Source: Oscillospiraceae bacterium
Lineage (GTDB): Bacteria > Bacillota > Clostridia > Oscillospirales > Ruminococcaceae
Direction of reading: 5' to 3'
Length of the DNA: 64,000 nt
Assembly: GCA_016288755.1 (NCBI GenBank)
Contig: JAEELE010000097.1
Location: 1-64,000, forward strand
The notes under the pieces are model-generated. The model did not search any database. It was given only the letters and a program-made list of their open reading frames with translations, and was not told the origin of the DNA. Every line of letters begins with the position of its first letter. Positions within the stretch are counted from its first letter, which is position 1. Positions 1,883 to 56,146 of the stretch are shown here, in pieces. Position numbers and translations under genes: made by a program.

Positions 1883-3217
1883 TTACAGCTTTCCGCCGAA
1901 GATTTCCTGCATCTGCGCCGTTTTGCCGCAGGAGAGCCGCCCCTCGGGGCATTTCCCGGTGACAAAGCAGCTCGGACCGAAGCGGTCGAAGACGCTGCCC
2001 TCTGCTAAGCGGAGCTGCCGCAGCAGGTCGACCGCGACGCCGCGGATCTCCCACTGTGCGCGGCTGCAGGTGCGCAGCTTCATGAAGTGGAGCAGCTCTC
2101 TTCCGTTCATCGCGCAGAGCACGTCGACCTGATTGCCCGCGAGCGCGAAATACTGCACGGCTGCCGCGGGGAGCCCCTCCGGGAGCATCCGGTTGAGCAC
2201 ATCTGCATTCCGCATGAAGGCAGCGGTATAGATTTCACGCGCATCTGCGTTATTTTCAATAGATTCGGGCAGCACATAATGCTGCGTCAGCACCGCCTGC
2301 GTCACCTGCGGCACGAGCACGGTCTGCATGCGGTGCCGCACCAGATGCGTGACCGCGGCGAGCGACAGATCACGCAGGGCAAACTGCGCCCAGATCATTT
2401 CGAGCTCGCGGGTGCGTTCCCCGTGCAGCACAGCGTCGGGGTCTGCGGGCTGACTGCCGCTCACGAAGTTGAAGGCGGCGCTCACAGTCAGCGCATCGGC
2501 GACCGGGCTGACATGCAGCAGCTCGGCGCGTCCCTGCGCGGCTTCCGGCTGCGGACATGCCGGAACGGCGGGCGGCGCATATCGGTCGCTCCCGGCGGGA
2601 AAGCGCTTCTCGAAGAGGTCGGGGAGCTTCGGGAAATAGGCGCGGATCTGCTCCTTGAGCGATTCACCGAGCGCCTTGAGCTCCGGGAAATAGGAGCCGC
2701 GCCCGACGCACATCACCGTGATCATGTAGAGCAGCTCGCGCGCGTTCATCGTGCAGTAGAAATTCGAGCGGAAGCAATAGGGCAGCAGATAACGCGCGTC
2801 CTCCTTCGGGATGCCGCACTCCAGCAGTGCCGCATAGTCGTCGAAGAGCGACTGCATGTGTGCTTTGTAGTCGGGCAGGAGCTGCTCCGGCAGCGGCGGG
2901 AGACAGAATCCGGCGTCCGTGAAATCGACGTATCTGCGGGATTTGACGGTATAGGAGCCGAGGCGGAACTCGATGACGAACTCCTCGGTGCAGACAGAGA
3001 CATTGTCGAAGGCGACGGTAAAGAACTGGTGCTCGAGGGTGGAGGTATGCCCGGAGGCAGCGACCTTTTCGATGAGACCGGCGTTATTTTCGCTTTCGCA
3101 GGAGCGGGCGAAGATTTCGAGTGCAGAGCCCTGCGTCGTAGAGATGCGGGCGGCGGAAGCGACGGCGGCGTCGCCGGCGGTAGAGGAGGCGATGATTTTC
3201 GCCTGAGCCTGATTCAT
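1883..3217 (-). CDS. thyX: FAD-dependent thymidylate synthase, tandem-domain form
   Basis: Start at MNQAQAKIIASS (SD upstream). Contains HTSTLEHQFFTVAF..., VIEFRLGSYTVKSRRYVDF and a second domain THLVRHRMQTVLVPQVTQ...ELLHFMKLRTCSRAQWEIR. Confidence 0.85.
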   Translation of the reverse strand: MNQAQAKIIASSTAGDAAVASAARISTTQGSALEIFARSCESENNAGLIEKVAASGHTSTLEHQFFTVAFDNVSVCTEEFVIEFRLGSYTVKSRRYVDFTDAGFCLPPLPEQLLPDYKAHMQSLFDDYAALLECGIPKEDARYLLPYCFRSNFYCTMNARELLYMITVMCVGRGSYFPELKALGESLKEQIRAYFPKLPDLFEKRFPAGSDRYAPPAVPACPQPEAAQGRAELLHVSPVADALTVSAAFNFVSGSQPADPDAVLHGERTRELEMIWAQFALRDLSLAAVTHLVRHRMQTVLVPQVTQAVLTQHYVLPESIENNADAREIYTAAFMRNADVLNRMLPEGLPAAAVQYFALAGNQVDVLCAMNGRELLHFMKLRTCSRAQWEIRGVAVDLLRQLRLAEGSVFDRFGPSCFVTGKCPEGRLSCGKTAQMQEIFGGKL

Positions 3218-6313: not shown

Positions 6314-6355
6314 GAGAAGTGAGAAATGGCGAGTGAGGAGTGAGGAGTTGTTCCG
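6314..6355 (+). repeat. Heptamer array (GAGNAGT)5 + TGTTCCG
   Basis: GAGAAGT GAGAAAT GGCGAGT GAGGAGT GAGGAGT TGTTCCG, exact 7-bp phase. Confidence 0.9.
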
Positions 6356-49470: not shown

Positions 49471-49606
49471 ATTGACATTTAACAGTGAACAGATGTTTTG
49501 CGGCGCGGCGACAGAAACATAAAACCGCAGGTTCCGCGGCAACATTTTTCCGCCCCCTGCAACGAACGCGCGGTTTTTTTCGTCATAAAGAGTGAGGGGG
49601 GCGAGT

Positions 49607-49837
49607 TAGAAGTGAGAAGTGAGGAGTGAGGAGTTGTTCCGGCTCTTTCACTTCTGCCGATGAGGGAGGGGCGGGGAAAAGAATAAAGAAGAAATGCGGT
49701 ATCGCATGTTTGCGAGCAAACTGCGCAGTTTTGCACTGCAAAACTGCGCTTCGCGATGATTCAGAATGGGGCATGGCGCCCCAAGCCCTGCCCGCGTCAG
49801 AAACTCCTCATTCCTCACTTCTCACTTCTCACTTCTC
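49607..49837. repeat. Full-length composite element: left heptamers, core 1, right heptamers
   Basis: TAGAAGT GAGAAGT GAGGAGT GAGGAGT TGTTCCG ... core 1 ... ACTCCTC ATTCCTC ACTTCTC ACTTCTC ACTTCTC. Confidence 0.92.
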
Positions 49838-49863
49838 ATTCCGCCGAACAGGGGGTGATCGCA

Positions 49864-50421
49864 ATGGACGACCGGGCGCTGCTCGACCGGTATTTTGCGC
49901 GGGATGAATCCGCGCTGAAAGAAACTGCCGAAAAATACGGCACGCTTTGCCGCAGTCTTGCGCAGCGCCTGCTCGGCGACCCGCAGGATGCGGAGGAGAC
50001 CTTCAACGACGCACTGCTACGCGCATGGCAGCACATCCCGCCGGATCGCCCTGCCAGCCTCCCCGCCTACCTCTGCGCACTCACACGCCGCATCGCGACC
50101 GACCGCCTGCGCAGCGCCGGTGCCCGCAAGCGCGGCGGCAGTGCCCTGCGCCTCAATCTGGAGGAGCTCGCGGAGTGTATTCCCGCGCCCGAAAGCGTCG
50201 AGCAGGAAGCCGACCGCCGTGCCCTCGCCGATGCGATCAGCGCATTTCTCGCCCAGCAGTCAAAGGAATCGCGCGTGTTCTTCATGCAGCGCTACTGGGC
50301 GATGCACTCCGTCGCGGAGATCGCCCGGCAATACGGAATCAGCGAAAATACGGTCAAAAGCATATTGAAGCGCACCCGTGACAGGCTGCGCAGCTATCTG
50401 GAACAGGAGGGATTGCTGTGA
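49864..50421 (+). CDS. ECF-type sigma-70 factor
   Basis: Region 2 (GDPQDAEETFNDALLRAW) and region 4 (MHSVAEIARQYGISENTVKSILKRTRDRLRSYL). Confidence 0.92.
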   Translation: MDDRALLDRYFARDESALKETAEKYGTLCRSLAQRLLGDPQDAEETFNDALLRAWQHIPPDRPASLPAYLCALTRRIATDRLRSAGARKRGGSALRLNLEELAECIPAPESVEQEADRRALADAISAFLAQQSKESRVFFMQRYWAMHSVAEIARQYGISENTVKSILKRTRDRLRSYLEQEGLL

Positions 50422-51701
50422 ACGGAGGAATCACCGGGCAGACCGCACAGGGGATGCTCGCACTCATGGATCTGATGCCCGCGCGCTTTGCAGACGAGCT
50501 CTTTGACGGAGAGGGGCTTGATCTTGCCGCTGCGGACGACCTGCCCGGCGCTGGTGCGGCTTCGTCCGCAGCGGAGGAGCGCAGCACCCGGACGGTCTGG
50601 CTGCCGGGCGTGATGGCGGTCTGCGGCTCAGCGGCATGTGTCGCCGTGCTGGTCGGCGTGATGCTCGCACTGCACAATGCGGCGCCCGGGCCGCTCCAAA
50701 GCGCAGCCGAGACTGCAGCGCAGACAACCCAGAGCACCGCAGATACCATCGAAAATACCGCCGCTGAGACTACGGCGGACACCGCGACCGGCACTGCCGA
50801 GCCGCCGCAGACCGCCGATTCCGCGCGCGTGACCGGCACGGTCATCCCGGAGACCGGCAGAACCGAGCCCAGCGCGACCGCATCGGAGACGACCGCACAG
50901 ACCGCATCGGCAGCGGAGACCACAGCCACGGATATCCCTGACAGCCGCGGCGCCGACCCCGAAGCCGTGATTGAGGAGCTGAAAGCCGGTCGGCAGTCCG
51001 TGTTCCGGTACAGCGAGGCGGTCGGGGGATATATCGAAAGCTGGCAGACCTACGGCGTCGCCTTCCTCTGCGGCGACCCCGAATCACTGCGGACAAAGCA
51101 GATCGGCGGGCATCCGGTCACGCTGGCCGCGGGCACATGCACACCGTCAGACGATGCGAATGCCTGCACGGTGCAGCGCGTGTCGGATTTCCTGCGTGTT
51201 TACGGCGATTCCGGCATGCACCCGCGATCTCCGGTGACGGACCCGGCCGCAGAGCTGCAGCGGCTGAAGGCGGAATCCGAGAGGGACGGGCAGACGCTCT
51301 GCATGGCGTCGGTCGGCGGCACAGACCTGAAATTCACGCAGGCAAGCGGCGGCACCGCATACGATGCGTCGGAGATCATCCGGGCGATCGCGGCGGACAG
51401 CGCGCTGACGCTGGTCGGGCTGGTCTGGTGTGAGGAGGACGCCGTCGGCGAGCTGCCGTTTGGCGAAATTCGCATTCTGGTGCAATTTGAAGCAAATTGT
51501 ACGCCCGACCCCGCCGACTACGCGGAATACGGCGAACTGGAATATTTTGTCGGGCACTGGGAGATCGTGACGGCGCTGGAAAATCCGCCCGCCGACGGTG
51601 ACCGCACGAAGATCTGGCAGGCACTCGCGAACATGTGCGCGAAGCTCGAGGCGCGCCCGGAGATCCGCTCCGCACTGCCCGAGCTCAATTATTCGATGTG
51701 A
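50418..51701 (+). CDS. Putative anti-sigma membrane protein with Thr/Ala-rich linker and extracytoplasmic domain
   Basis: GTG start overlapping the sigma stop; single TM (VWLPGVMAVCGSAACVAVLVGVMLAL). Confidence 0.75.
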   Translation: MNGGITGQTAQGMLALMDLMPARFADELFDGEGLDLAAADDLPGAGAASSAAEERSTRTVWLPGVMAVCGSAACVAVLVGVMLALHNAAPGPLQSAAETAAQTTQSTADTIENTAAETTADTATGTAEPPQTADSARVTGTVIPETGRTEPSATASETTAQTASAAETTATDIPDSRGADPEAVIEELKAGRQSVFRYSEAVGGYIESWQTYGVAFLCGDPESLRTKQIGGHPVTLAAGTCTPSDDANACTVQRVSDFLRVYGDSGMHPRSPVTDPAAELQRLKAESERDGQTLCMASVGGTDLKFTQASGGTAYDASEIIRAIAADSALTLVGLVWCEEDAVGELPFGEIRILVQFEANCTPDPADYAEYGELEYFVGHWEIVTALENPPADGDRTKIWQALANMCAKLEARPEIRSALPELNYSM

Positions 51702-51772
51702 GACAGAGGGATGATATTGGGGGCGCCGCCCTTTTGGAATCTCGTTTCAGATATGTGAACGGAGGGATTTTT

Positions 51773-52804
51773 ATGAAGATGAAGCGTTTTCTTTTGGCAT
51801 GTGTCGGCGCGGCGCTGGCGTTCACGATGCCCGGAACGACCGCGCAGGCGACCGATATGGAAAGCGTTCTGCGGCGCACCAGCCCTTGGGCGGTGCATGA
51901 GGAGCGCGACCCGGAAAAGGGCTGGCGCTGCTTTGAGCAAAGCGTCTATTTCTTCGGATTTCTGGTGCGGCTGCCGGAGGAGGAGCCCGAGACCGTGGCG
52001 GGGCTGCCGGTGACGCATCCGGGCATCGAGTGGGATGAATCGGCGCCTGCGCGTGCGGTGCTGCGTTCGGCGGCGGAATTCTGCGAATATGTGCAGTGCT
52101 GGGACAACGGCATTCTCGGGTCGGTCGGCGATCTCCTTTCCGGCTGGCAGCCGCAGTATCAGACGACCGAATTTGCCGTGATGACGGTGCCTGCGCCGTT
52201 CTGGAGCGGGTGGAGTTCAGAAACCGCGCAGAAGGTGCTGGATGAGCTTGAATCGCCCGAAAGCGCATTTGAGCTGATCGGTGCGGTGTATGTGACCGCC
52301 CGCAGCTACGGGTACTGCATGGGAATTGACGTCGTCATGGAGACGGACGACCCGGACGCATGGGAAGCCGTGCAGGCGGAATACGGTCTGACCCCGCCGC
52401 CGGAGGATGTCGGGTCTATGCGCAGAGAGCATTACTACTGCAACATGGATCAGCCCAACGATGCGGCGGCGCACATTGTCTACCTTGACAATCTGTATGA
52501 CCTGCGCGACCGTCTGCGCGCCGACCCGCGCGTCAGCAGCGCAGAGATCGCGTGGGAGATCATGACATCCGGCGCCGATGACGGCATGATCTCCGTGCTG
52601 CCGGTCTACGATTTTGGCACGGGCGATATCGACGAAAACGGCACAGCGAACATCGGCGACGCGGTGCTGCTTGCAAGATATCTCGCCGAGGACAATGCGA
52701 TCACGCAGCCGACGCAGAACGGCAAAAATCTCGCGGACATGGACGGCGACGGCACACTCGACAGCGCCGACCTTGCTGCGCTGCTCGAGCTGCTTGCGAA
52801 CTGA
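51773..52804 (+). CDS. Secreted dockerin-I protein, N-terminal domain unknown
   Basis: Signal peptide MKMKRFLLACVGAALAFTMPGTTAQA; dockerin GDIDENGTANIGDAVLLARYLAED...ADMDGDGTLDSADLAALLELL. Confidence 0.9.
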   Translation: MKMKRFLLACVGAALAFTMPGTTAQATDMESVLRRTSPWAVHEERDPEKGWRCFEQSVYFFGFLVRLPEEEPETVAGLPVTHPGIEWDESAPARAVLRSAAEFCEYVQCWDNGILGSVGDLLSGWQPQYQTTEFAVMTVPAPFWSGWSSETAQKVLDELESPESAFELIGAVYVTARSYGYCMGIDVVMETDDPDAWEAVQAEYGLTPPPEDVGSMRREHYYCNMDQPNDAAAHIVYLDNLYDLRDRLRADPRVSSAEIAWEIMTSGADDGMISVLPVYDFGTGDIDENGTANIGDAVLLARYLAEDNAITQPTQNGKNLADMDGDGTLDSADLAALLELLAN

Positions 52805-52819
52805 GCGGGAGGGATTTTT

Positions 52820-53797
52820 ATGAAGATGAAGCGTTTTCTTTCGGCATGTGTCGGCGCGGCGCTGGCGCTCGGAATGCTTGCAACGACCGCGCAGGCGACT
52901 GACATGAAAAGCGTTCTGCGGCGGATCAGATGGGAAAGCATGGTCGAGGTGCACGACAGCGAGCGGGGCTGGATGTGCTATAACAAATGGATGTACTTCT
53001 TCGGCTTTGTTGTCAGGCTCCCGGCGGAAATGCCCGGGACGCTTGCAGGGCTGCCGGTGAGTTATCCGGGCGGCGCGGACATTTTTGAGAGCGATGCGCC
53101 GCTGTGCGTCACCGTTCGCTCGTCCGAGGATATCTGCGAATACGTCACGCGCTATGACGGCGGCATTCTCGGCTCGCTCGCCGACAAATTTCTCTCGAGC
53201 TGGGCGCCGGACCTCCGGACGCCGGAATATGCGGTCGTGCAGGTCTGCGGCGGCTGGCAGGCAATGCGGGAGAAAACCGGCTGTGAGGAGCAGGCACTGC
53301 TCGATCTGTTAGAATCGCCCGAAAGCCCGATGGAACTGATCGGCGCGCTCTATGTGACCGCGTATCAGTACGGCGAGCCCGGCGGCTTGGATTTCTCCCT
53401 GTACGACGAATCGCCGGAAAGCCGTGCGGCGATCATCGCAGAATACGGCGTGCGGGATGATCTCCCGTTGGATGAGCAGTATGCGCTTGCGGAACGGCTG
53501 CGCACCGACCCGCGCATCGAAAACGCCTGTGTCTGCTGGATATTCTGGGAATCGGCTGCTGCAGAGGACGGCGCACTCGCGATTCTCCCGGTCTTCGATT
53601 TCGGCACCGGCGATCTGGACGAAAACGGCACGGCAAATATCGGCGATGCGGTGCTGCTTGCGCGGTATCTCGCCGAGGACAGTGCAATCACGCAGCCGAC
53701 CCCCAACGGCAAAAATCTCGCCGATATGGACGGCGACGGCACACTCGACAGCAGCGACCTTGCCGCGCTGCTCGAAATGCTCGCAAATCCTTCATAG
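52820..53797 (+). CDS. Secreted dockerin-I protein, tandem paralogue of the previous
   Basis: Near-identical signal peptide and dockerin; divergent middle domain. Confidence 0.9.
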   Translation: MKMKRFLSACVGAALALGMLATTAQATDMKSVLRRIRWESMVEVHDSERGWMCYNKWMYFFGFVVRLPAEMPGTLAGLPVSYPGGADIFESDAPLCVTVRSSEDICEYVTRYDGGILGSLADKFLSSWAPDLRTPEYAVVQVCGGWQAMREKTGCEEQALLDLLESPESPMELIGALYVTAYQYGEPGGLDFSLYDESPESRAAIIAEYGVRDDLPLDEQYALAERLRTDPRIENACVCWIFWESAAAEDGALAILPVFDFGTGDLDENGTANIGDAVLLARYLAEDSAITQPTPNGKNLADMDGDGTLDSSDLAALLEMLANPS

Positions 53798-53803
53798 CAG
53801 TTA

Positions 53804-53832
53804 CAGAAAGTCCCCGAAAAGGGGACTTTCTG
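53804..53832 (+). terminator. Hairpin after the sigma/dockerin operon
   Basis: CAGAAAGTCCCC gaaaa GGGGACTTTCTG. Confidence 0.75.
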
Positions 53833-53935
53833 CATGTGAAAATTGACAAATCCGTAAAAATCGCTTGCTTTTTCGGCGGAAATATATTATAATAGGGACA
53901 AAGAGAAAAAACGCCGTCCAAGTGTGGGGGAAGAT

Positions 53936-56146
53936 ATGAAGCAACGGAAAATATACGGTGTGATTGCGGCAGAAGCCAGCAGTATTGAGCAGCGCCAGAT
54001 CCTCAACGGCATCATCGCGACAGCGCAGGCGCACAACATTGATATTGCTGTAATCACGAATATCTACAATCCCTATGACGAAAATGACCGTGACTACAAG
54101 GAGTTCTTCACCGAAAACCGCATCTACGAGCTGATCCTCTCGCCCGAGCTCGACGGTCTGATTCTGATTGCCGAGTCCTTCACCAACAAGCATCTGCAGG
54201 GGGTCATGTTCAGCACGCTGAAAAAGCGGCTCGATCTGCCGCTGATCGTCATTTCGATGTATACTCCCGAGCTCGATCTGCCGAACGCGACCTTCATCAA
54301 CACCAGCGACTTCAACGACATGTTTGAGATCACCTCGCACATGATCGAGAAGCACGGCTGCACGAACATCGACATTCTCACAGGCTTTTCCGGAAACCCT
54401 GCCGCAGAGGACCGCGTGCAGGGCTATCGGCGTGCTCTGGAGCAGCACGGGCTGACCTTCGAGCCCGAGCGCGTGCACTGGGGCGACTTCTGGACGACCT
54501 CCGGCGACCAGCTCGCCAAGGACTATATCAGCGGCAAATACCCGCTGCCGCAGGCGCTGGTCTGCGCCAACGACTATATGGCATTCGGTCTGCTCGATGC
54601 GCTCGCGGTCAGCCCGATCCGCGTGCCCGAGGACCTCGCCGTCACCGGCTATGAAAACGTCAACGAGCGCATCTATCACACGCCGCTGCTCTCGACCTAT
54701 CAGCGCAACCGCTCCGAGCTCGGCATTCAGGCGGTCCTGCGGCTCGAGGACCCGACGCATCCCTTTGAGAGCCCGCAGGGCACATGGGTCGCCGGCGCGA
54801 GCTGCGGCTGCTCTGCCGACCCGGAGGTCATCAACAGCGAGCTCAACTGGATCCGCACGCGCATCAACCACGAATACTGGACCTCCTACAGCAATATGGA
54901 GATGCGGCTCACGCTCTGCGAATCGCTCGAGGAATTCATCGCGGAGATGACCAGGCACCTCTTCCTCGTGCGCTATGCCTCTGATATTCAGCTCTGCCTT
55001 TTTGAGAAATGGCACACCGACGAGAACTGCAGCATGGAAAACGACCGGCTCTCCTTCCGCAGCATCGCGGGCTGGCGGCAGGAGGAGCCGATGAAGACCT
55101 GCACGCCGATGCAGCTCTCCGAGATGATGTACGGACCGCCGTGTGCGTATTACTTCACGCCGCTCTTTTTCCGCAAGCGGCTGATGGGGCTCAATGTGCT
55201 GCGCTATGACCACCCCGACTGCTTTGACCCGATCTACCGCGACTGGCTCAAGGGCGTCTCAAACGGGCTGGAATTCCTGCGCATGAAGAACGATATCCAG
55301 TATCTCATCCGGCGGCGCAACGGCTCCGGCTCCTACGACAGCGTGACCGGTCTGCTCCGACCGACGGCATTTCTGCGGGAGCTCTCCGCGGCGATCTCCC
55401 ATGCGGCACCCGAGGAGCAGATGCTGCTGCTCACGCTCCGGTCGTCCTACACGCAGACGGAGCTCCATCTGCAGACCGAATCCGAGCGGATCGCCGCTGC
55501 GAAGGCGGTCGCCGACGCGATGCAGAGTGCGGTCCGCGGCATCGGGCAGATGTTCTGCGGGCTGCCCGCGCAGGGCTGCTATGTCATTGCGGGCATCGGA
55601 AAATATACGGACAAGGCGGTCAGCGAGCTGAGTGAGCTGCTGCATGTCTATCTGCTCTATTCCGACGAGGCGTTCATCACGACGGTCCCCGATTCCTTCT
55701 GCATCACCGCGCAGCAGTATGCGCTGGAGGGCATCAAGCCCGAGGCGATTCTCGCGGCGGTCACCGACGAAATGAAGCAGGTGCGTCCGCCCGCCTACAC
55801 CTCCGACGATCTGCAGCTGCTGCGGCTGCGCATCCGGCTCTATCACGACTTCGAGGAGCAGCCCTCTGCGGAGGATTGCTGCCGCATTCTCTGCTTCAGC
55901 GAGGGCTATTTCCGCACGCGCTACAAGACCCTCTTCGGCGTGAGCTATCATCAGGACTGCATCCACGCGCGCATCAGCTATGCGAAATATCTGCTGCTGA
56001 CCACGCAGCTCTCGGTCTCGGCGATCGCCGCGCAGTGCGGCTACCGCGAGGACAACTATTTCCTGCGGCAGTTCCGACGCGAGACCGGTCTGACGCCGAA
56101 TCAGTTCCGCAAGGTCCTCCCTGCGAATGTTCACGGTGAGGCATAA
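53936..56146 (+). CDS. Hybrid regulator: LacI/PBP1-like sensor + degenerate GGDEF-like + AraC HTH
   Basis: IYGVIAAEASSIEQRQILNGIIATAQAHNIDIAVIT (PBP1); YDSVTGLLRPTAFLREL (GGDEF start); C-terminal LSVSAIAAQCGYREDNYFLRQFRRETGLTPNQFR (AraC). Confidence 0.9.
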   Translation: MKQRKIYGVIAAEASSIEQRQILNGIIATAQAHNIDIAVITNIYNPYDENDRDYKEFFTENRIYELILSPELDGLILIAESFTNKHLQGVMFSTLKKRLDLPLIVISMYTPELDLPNATFINTSDFNDMFEITSHMIEKHGCTNIDILTGFSGNPAAEDRVQGYRRALEQHGLTFEPERVHWGDFWTTSGDQLAKDYISGKYPLPQALVCANDYMAFGLLDALAVSPIRVPEDLAVTGYENVNERIYHTPLLSTYQRNRSELGIQAVLRLEDPTHPFESPQGTWVAGASCGCSADPEVINSELNWIRTRINHEYWTSYSNMEMRLTLCESLEEFIAEMTRHLFLVRYASDIQLCLFEKWHTDENCSMENDRLSFRSIAGWRQEEPMKTCTPMQLSEMMYGPPCAYYFTPLFFRKRLMGLNVLRYDHPDCFDPIYRDWLKGVSNGLEFLRMKNDIQYLIRRRNGSGSYDSVTGLLRPTAFLRELSAAISHAAPEEQMLLLTLRSSYTQTELHLQTESERIAAAKAVADAMQSAVRGIGQMFCGLPAQGCYVIAGIGKYTDKAVSELSELLHVYLLYSDEAFITTVPDSFCITAQQYALEGIKPEAILAAVTDEMKQVRPPAYTSDDLQLLRLRIRLYHDFEEQPSAEDCCRILCFSEGYFRTRYKTLFGVSYHQDCIHARISYAKYLLLTTQLSVSAIAAQCGYREDNYFLRQFRRETGLTPNQFRKVLPANVHGEA

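Follow-up and report, generated by a model that had tools for sequence, protein, structure and literature searches.

The closest described counterparts of the operon analyzed here are the SigI/RsgI pairs of Clostridium (Acetivibrio) thermocellum and its relatives, a paralogous family of sigma and anti-sigma factors in a cellulosome producer, in which a single-pass anti-sigma factor with a sensory ectodomain is encoded in the same operon as its sigma factor, and in which the ectodomain can be a module, such as CBM3, that cellulosomal proteins use as well (PMC6056542, PMC11557425). RsgI receptors have been reported to occur only in Acetivibrio-type producers (PMC11557425); cellulosome regulation in ruminococci has been called "yet to be understood" (PMC4081043). 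Our subject is a four-gene operon on the + strand, at positions 49864–53832, of a 64,000-nucleotide stretch of DNA from an Oscillospiraceae bacterium (contig JAEELE010000097.1; the whole stretch is referred to as the window), which encodes, in this order, an extracytoplasmic function (ECF) sigma factor, a membrane anti-sigma-like protein, and two dockerin proteins. The operon resembles SigI/RsgI in all of the respects just listed for the family and the operon organization, and differs from it in that its sigma factor has region 4 and no SigI C-domain, its ectodomain is without a recognized carbohydrate-binding module or enzyme, and its dockerin genes lie inside the sigma operon itself. We reject membership of the SigI/RsgI family, since region 4 is present in the sigma factor and RsgI_N (PF12791) matches in 0 of 30 genomes of the genus, with a Bacillus subtilis control that does match. 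Our central finding is that the ectodomain of the anti-sigma-like protein (residues 174–427, 50937–51698) and the N-terminal domains (N-domains) of the dockerin proteins encoded beside it (51851–52615 and 52898–53602) are almost certainly homologous, as judged from profile comparisons.

Pairwise BLASTP detected no similarity between the ectodomain and the dockerin proteins, and a first scan of genome contigs with the ectodomain confirmed no relative. A small ectodomain profile, built from the window protein's relatives on contigs C7 and C125 of its own genome, nevertheless matches proteins of the sister genomes G318 and G313 that carry dockerins or fragments of dockerin proteins, with E-values against their dockerin-borne domain of 2e-9 (hmmsearch) and 6e-8 (hhalign). 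This intermediate domain matches a profile of the window and sister dockerin N-domains at E-values of 3e-6 and 4e-6. Direct comparison of the ectodomain and dockerin N-domain profiles gives an E-value of 0.0017, and pooling the ectodomain with the intermediate gives 3.8e-6 over 177 collinear columns at 14% identity; none of 150 alignments with shuffled columns scored as high as the real one in any of these comparisons. The first-pass annotation had noticed this similarity by eye, and had proposed HHpred and Foldseek comparisons of the domains: the similarity is borne out at the profile level (hhalign) by way of the intermediate family, whereas Foldseek found no known fold. Given the homologous domain and the conserved gene order and packing described below, neither of the outcomes named there as speaking against a sensor operon, unrelated folds and separate transcription of the dockerin genes, arose.

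The domain is rare, with strong matches in only a handful of genomes of the genus among the several hundred genomes searched. Separately, a dockerin-bearing open reading frame of the sister genome G109 (L268:6340–7212) contains a piece of the same domain (E-value of 6e-6), with no sigma gene seen alongside, and in G318 (L057, contig C151, 325–3857) a trypsin-like protease gene with a dockerin-like stretch immediately precedes a gene for a multi-domain secreted protein with an ectodomain-like module. AlphaFold models the core of the N-domain of dockerin protein 2 with pLDDT values mostly of 80–94, and most of the C-terminal 75-residue subdomain of the ectodomain (51462–51698, predicted beta-alpha-beta-beta-alpha-beta) with values of ~80–89.

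All four genes that the first-pass annotation had placed here are present in the order and span it gave and are tightly packed, and the peptides it quoted match the sequence. The sigma factor (185 aa, 49864–50421) is clearly of the ECF type by its profile matches, with sigma-70 regions 2 and 4 only (Sigma70_r2 at 1e-12, Sigma70_r4 at 3e-10, and TIGR02937 above cutoff at 5e-24), and is 59% and 55% identical to the sigma factors of the corresponding operons in sister genomes G310 and G320, respectively. The gene for the anti-sigma-like protein (427 aa, 50418–51701) overlaps the sigma gene by 4 bases, as in the paralogous pairs, and is translationally coupled to it. The protein consists of ~64 cytoplasmic residues, a single transmembrane segment (the one strong hydrophobic segment in the hydropathy profile, from residue 65), a Thr/Ser/Ala-rich linker, and the 254-residue ectodomain, and matches no Pfam or NCBIfam family. 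A profile of the N-termini of its paralogues finds the G310 orthologue (5e-6, in a two-sequence search) and not the window protein, which aligns to the G310 protein by eye. From what is known of ECF and SigI/RsgI systems, this protein would bind the sigma factor and inhibit it.

In its type of sigma factor and in its 4-base overlap, the pair is like typical clostridial ECF sigma factors with a transmembrane anti-sigma factor that lacks a zinc-binding domain, and the short N-terminal motif followed by a transmembrane segment and linker is likewise typical of clostridial ECF anti-sigma factors and of most paralogues here. Unlike those typical pairs, it shows dockerin linkage and domain sharing, which in these data are seen only in this genus. 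Beyond what the first-pass annotation had described, the pair is one of many paralogous pairs: the source genome has 20 matches to the window sigma factor below 1e-18, and as many as 34 occur in larger genomes of the genus, nearly all directly followed by a gene for a predicted anti-sigma factor. A clear transmembrane segment is found in 117 of 130 such proteins in the sample, and their ectodomains are highly diverse (PASTA domains in 4 of the 38 scanned). We note that on contig C50 of the same genome (L122:988–2481, – strand), a membrane anti-sigma factor adjoining an ECF sigma factor has an ectodomain that includes half a dockerin (Pfam, 6e-6; one calcium loop is intact), evidence that parts of dockerin proteins do become incorporated into such anti-sigma factors; a weaker trace of a similar kind is present in G310 (L135, contig C13).

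The four-gene arrangement is not confined to the window. The genomes compared are mostly metagenome-assembled, and several contigs end beside genes of interest; within these data, the order of sigma, anti-sigma, and dockerin genes and their tight packing are kept in three diverged species, with the domain present once in one dockerin protein of the G310 operon and twice in the other, and the G320 operon encoding one dockerin protein. The G310 anti-sigma ectodomain as a whole corresponds to the C-terminal subdomain of the window ectodomain, with 46–49% identity. Among the sigma loci examined, a dockerin gene directly follows the anti-sigma gene in 11 distinct operons of the genus, of which 3 are in the source genome (contigs C123, C112, and C32), and these dockerin-linked operons fall in three places of the sigma tree, with modest support for two of the three groupings. 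No dockerin-linked sigma operon was found among the loci from outside the genus, which are mostly from organisms not known to make cellulosomes, in a sample selected for similarity to the window sigma factor. Also in the source genome, at C129:34947–35322, a 68-aa sigma fragment directly followed by a short dockerin fragment is apparently the remnant of another sigma/dockerin operon.

A second type of operon, also absent from the first-pass annotation and represented by C32 and G308, shows the same kind of sharing with a different module, in that its ectodomain and its dockerin protein have an immunoglobulin-like (Ig-like) domain in common (hhalign, 3e-16; BLASTP within the operons, 3e-5 and 4e-8). 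In a G308 locus (L150, contig C44, ~2760–3060), the dockerin gene of a sigma operon has an in-frame stop soon after the signal peptide, as a broken gene or an assembly error would give. As a broader proposal, which we regard as rather doubtful, the ECF sigma/anti-sigma family of the genus may form a cellulosome-sensing network in which ectodomains and dockerin proteins draw on one pool of modules, so that sensors are matched to parts. We do not claim domain sharing as a general rule, since it is undetectable in two other operon types.

The two dockerin proteins (protein 1, 343 aa, 51773–52804; protein 2, 325 aa, 52820–53797) each have a signal-peptide-like hydrophobic N-terminus and a single type I dockerin that scores above the Pfam cutoff (PF00404; 52622–52783, E-value of 5e-9, and 53609–53776, E-value of 1e-9), which the genome-wide dockerin scan places in the same positions, and the calcium loops DxDxNGxxNxxD and DxDGDGxxDxxD can be read in the sequence. 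Pfam finds nothing else in either protein, in keeping with the earlier description of them as without a recognized catalytic domain. They thereby resemble the dockerin proteins of Ruminococcus flavefaciens FD-1, which are secreted with uncharacterized N-domains, and among which 118 dockerin proteins of uncharacterized function and 155 unknown domains have been described (PMC2930009); unlike that set, the N-domain in the window belongs with a regulatory operon, whose membrane sensor has a related ectodomain. With 134 dockerin matches and 9 cohesin matches at E ≤ 0.1 (8 of them over, or counted over, the cutoff), the source bacterium is very probably a cellulosome producer by its gene content.

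The twin proteins are 54% identical overall, and this value conceals a contrast between dockerins that are 92% identical (dN/dS of ~0.10) and N-domains that are 49% identical (dN/dS of ~0.51). The same contrast is seen in the G310 twins (97% vs 30% identity), where the near-identical DNA of the dockerins makes recent gene conversion likely. Conserved dockerins combined with diverged N-domains suggest that the twins probably dock on the same cohesin while their N-domains act differently, as if one cohesin socket were being fitted with different heads.

The sequence TGCAAC-N17-CGTC, at 49558–49584 upstream of the sigma gene, is a candidate ECF-type promoter. Identical 6 + 4 bases, equally spaced, occur upstream of the operons in G310 and G320, and CGTC directly follows a tract of A or T in all three cases. 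It is the single match to the pattern in the window, where 0.18 are expected, and there are ~10 matches in the whole genome, giving a chance of ~4e-4 for a match per 300-base upstream region. The idea of one promoter common to the entire sigma family was also considered and rejected, as a loose AAC/CGT motif does not exceed the level in shuffled sequence.

Taking these observations together, the reading that we favor, tentatively and at a probability that we put a little short of even, is a sensing switch that serves a small group of cellulosome components, with a shared ligand and positive matching between sensor and parts. At rest, the membrane anti-sigma factor would hold the sigma factor inactive. 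The ectodomain and its dockerin-borne copies, being homologous, would most likely recognize one ligand, or related ligands, outside the cell; candidates are a polymer of the plant cell wall and a partner on the surface or in the cellulosome. Ligand bound to the ectodomain would, as in known ECF and SigI/RsgI systems, free the sigma factor, which would then transcribe its own operon, and the resulting dockerin proteins would dock on scaffoldin cohesins and thus add copies of the same binding domain to the cellulosome. If the ligand is indeed shared, sensing it would raise the output of the matching cellulosome parts. This resembles the lysozyme-receptor model for RsiV/SigV of Bacillus subtilis, where an extracellular partner on the anti-sigma ectodomain releases an ECF sigma factor (PMC5014341), and differs from it in the ectodomain and in the link to the cellulosome, which RsiV/SigV lacks; the ligand of RsiV is also known. 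Gene linkage and homology alike connect a membrane sensor with particular cellulosomal proteins here, and the operon is a concrete, testable candidate for how ruminococci might tune their cellulosomes. It may also hint at what some of the many functionally uncharacterized dockerin proteins do. Our literature search, which had most subscription journals outside its reach, found no report of an ECF sigma factor linked to dockerins in Ruminococcus.

Several observations weigh against a dedicated sensing switch of this kind. The closest relatives of the anti-sigma-like protein in its own genome, on C7 and C125 (the latter paired with its own sigma factor), have no adjoining dockerin gene in the readable sequence, which suggests that the ectodomain can exist without dockerin partners; we note that C7, like contig C189 of G318, is cut by contig ends, such that missing neighbors there are no evidence. 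In G310 and G320, the ectodomain comprises only the C-terminal 75 residues, and thus the arrangement does not require the N-terminal half. Beyond these last 75 residues, the ectodomain is poorly modeled, so that the case for a shared fold rests on sequence, and Foldseek searches of the PDB with the ectodomain and dockerin N-domain models gave no match at E ≤ 0.001. In two other types of dockerin-linked operon, there is no convincing domain sharing (profile comparison of the hhalign type, E-values of 0.088 and 0.049). Finally, the target promoter that the first-pass annotation had suggested looking for at dockerin genes did not emerge, in that the strict motif is not enriched genome-wide and no wider regulon was found.

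The same homology could also reflect feedback by titration, the competition proposed in the first-pass annotation, in which the dockerin-borne copies act as soluble decoys that compete with the ectodomain for ligand and lower the signal. The presence of homologous domains within one operon, with dockerin-borne copies outnumbering those on the sensor 2 to 1 in the window and 3 to 1 in G310, is what such feedback would produce. However, a decoy would have no use for a dockerin, whereas here the calcium-loop motifs of both dockerins are intact and kept by selection, and at 14% identity in the pooled alignment the N-domains are so divergent from the ectodomain that equal affinity is doubtful; we therefore consider titration unlikely. 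Local recombination may instead have brought the ectodomain from a dockerin gene into the anti-sigma gene, or both may have acquired it from a shared stock of secreted domains, in which case the co-location would reflect shared history with no functional link. Domain capture clearly occurs, as the half dockerin on C50 illustrates, and the Ig-like domains of the second operon type are common in secreted proteins, but the first domain type is rare and still occurs on both sides of the operon, and three diverged species have retained its order and packing, which makes an absence of any functional link, in our estimate, quite unlikely.

Homologous domains often self-associate, and the ectodomain could on this basis bind the dockerin-borne copies themselves and report their docking on the cell-surface cellulosome, as a status sensor. 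While the partners are encoded together, the domains are highly divergent, and the relatives on C7 and C125 are without such neighbors as far as can be read, leaving homotypic contact improbable. A protease-related role, in which the C-terminal subdomain has the propeptide-like inhibitor fold of subtilisin prodomains, the dockerin proteins shield the cellulosome, and the anti-sigma factor senses proteolysis, is kept only as a very improbable alternative, since the predicted topology of the subdomain, an LxxxPxVxxAxPxxxY ending that we take to resemble those of propeptide-like inhibitors, and the trypsin-like protease gene that adjoins the gene for a protein with this domain in G318 are set against the lack of any Pfam match, of any PDB sequence match to the subdomain profile (which leaves a subtilisin-prodomain identity unsupported), and of any Foldseek match to a prodomain, and against a beta-alpha-beta-beta-alpha-beta fold class that is very common.

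Gaps of 71 bases between the anti-sigma gene and the gene for dockerin protein 1, and of 15 bases between the two dockerin genes, complete the layout of the operon, which is closed by a 12-pair hairpin (53804–53832, –23 kcal mol–1, z of –6.6). The terminator proposed in the first-pass annotation is thus present as a strong hairpin, but no T run (U-tract) follows it and it is absent from the list produced by the terminator scan, such that we describe it as a possible terminator. Upstream of the operon lies rpoB, in the opposite orientation, and downstream, at 53924–56146, is a gene for a regulator in which a LacI-type sugar-binding domain is fused to an AraC-type DNA-binding domain. A repeat element (49607–49845) with inverted ends GAAGTGAGAAGTGAGGA / TCCTCACTTCTCACTTC separates the candidate promoter from the sigma gene, and similar repeat ends occur in the window near 6332, 9527, 16769, 18444, and 25565, and on other contigs.

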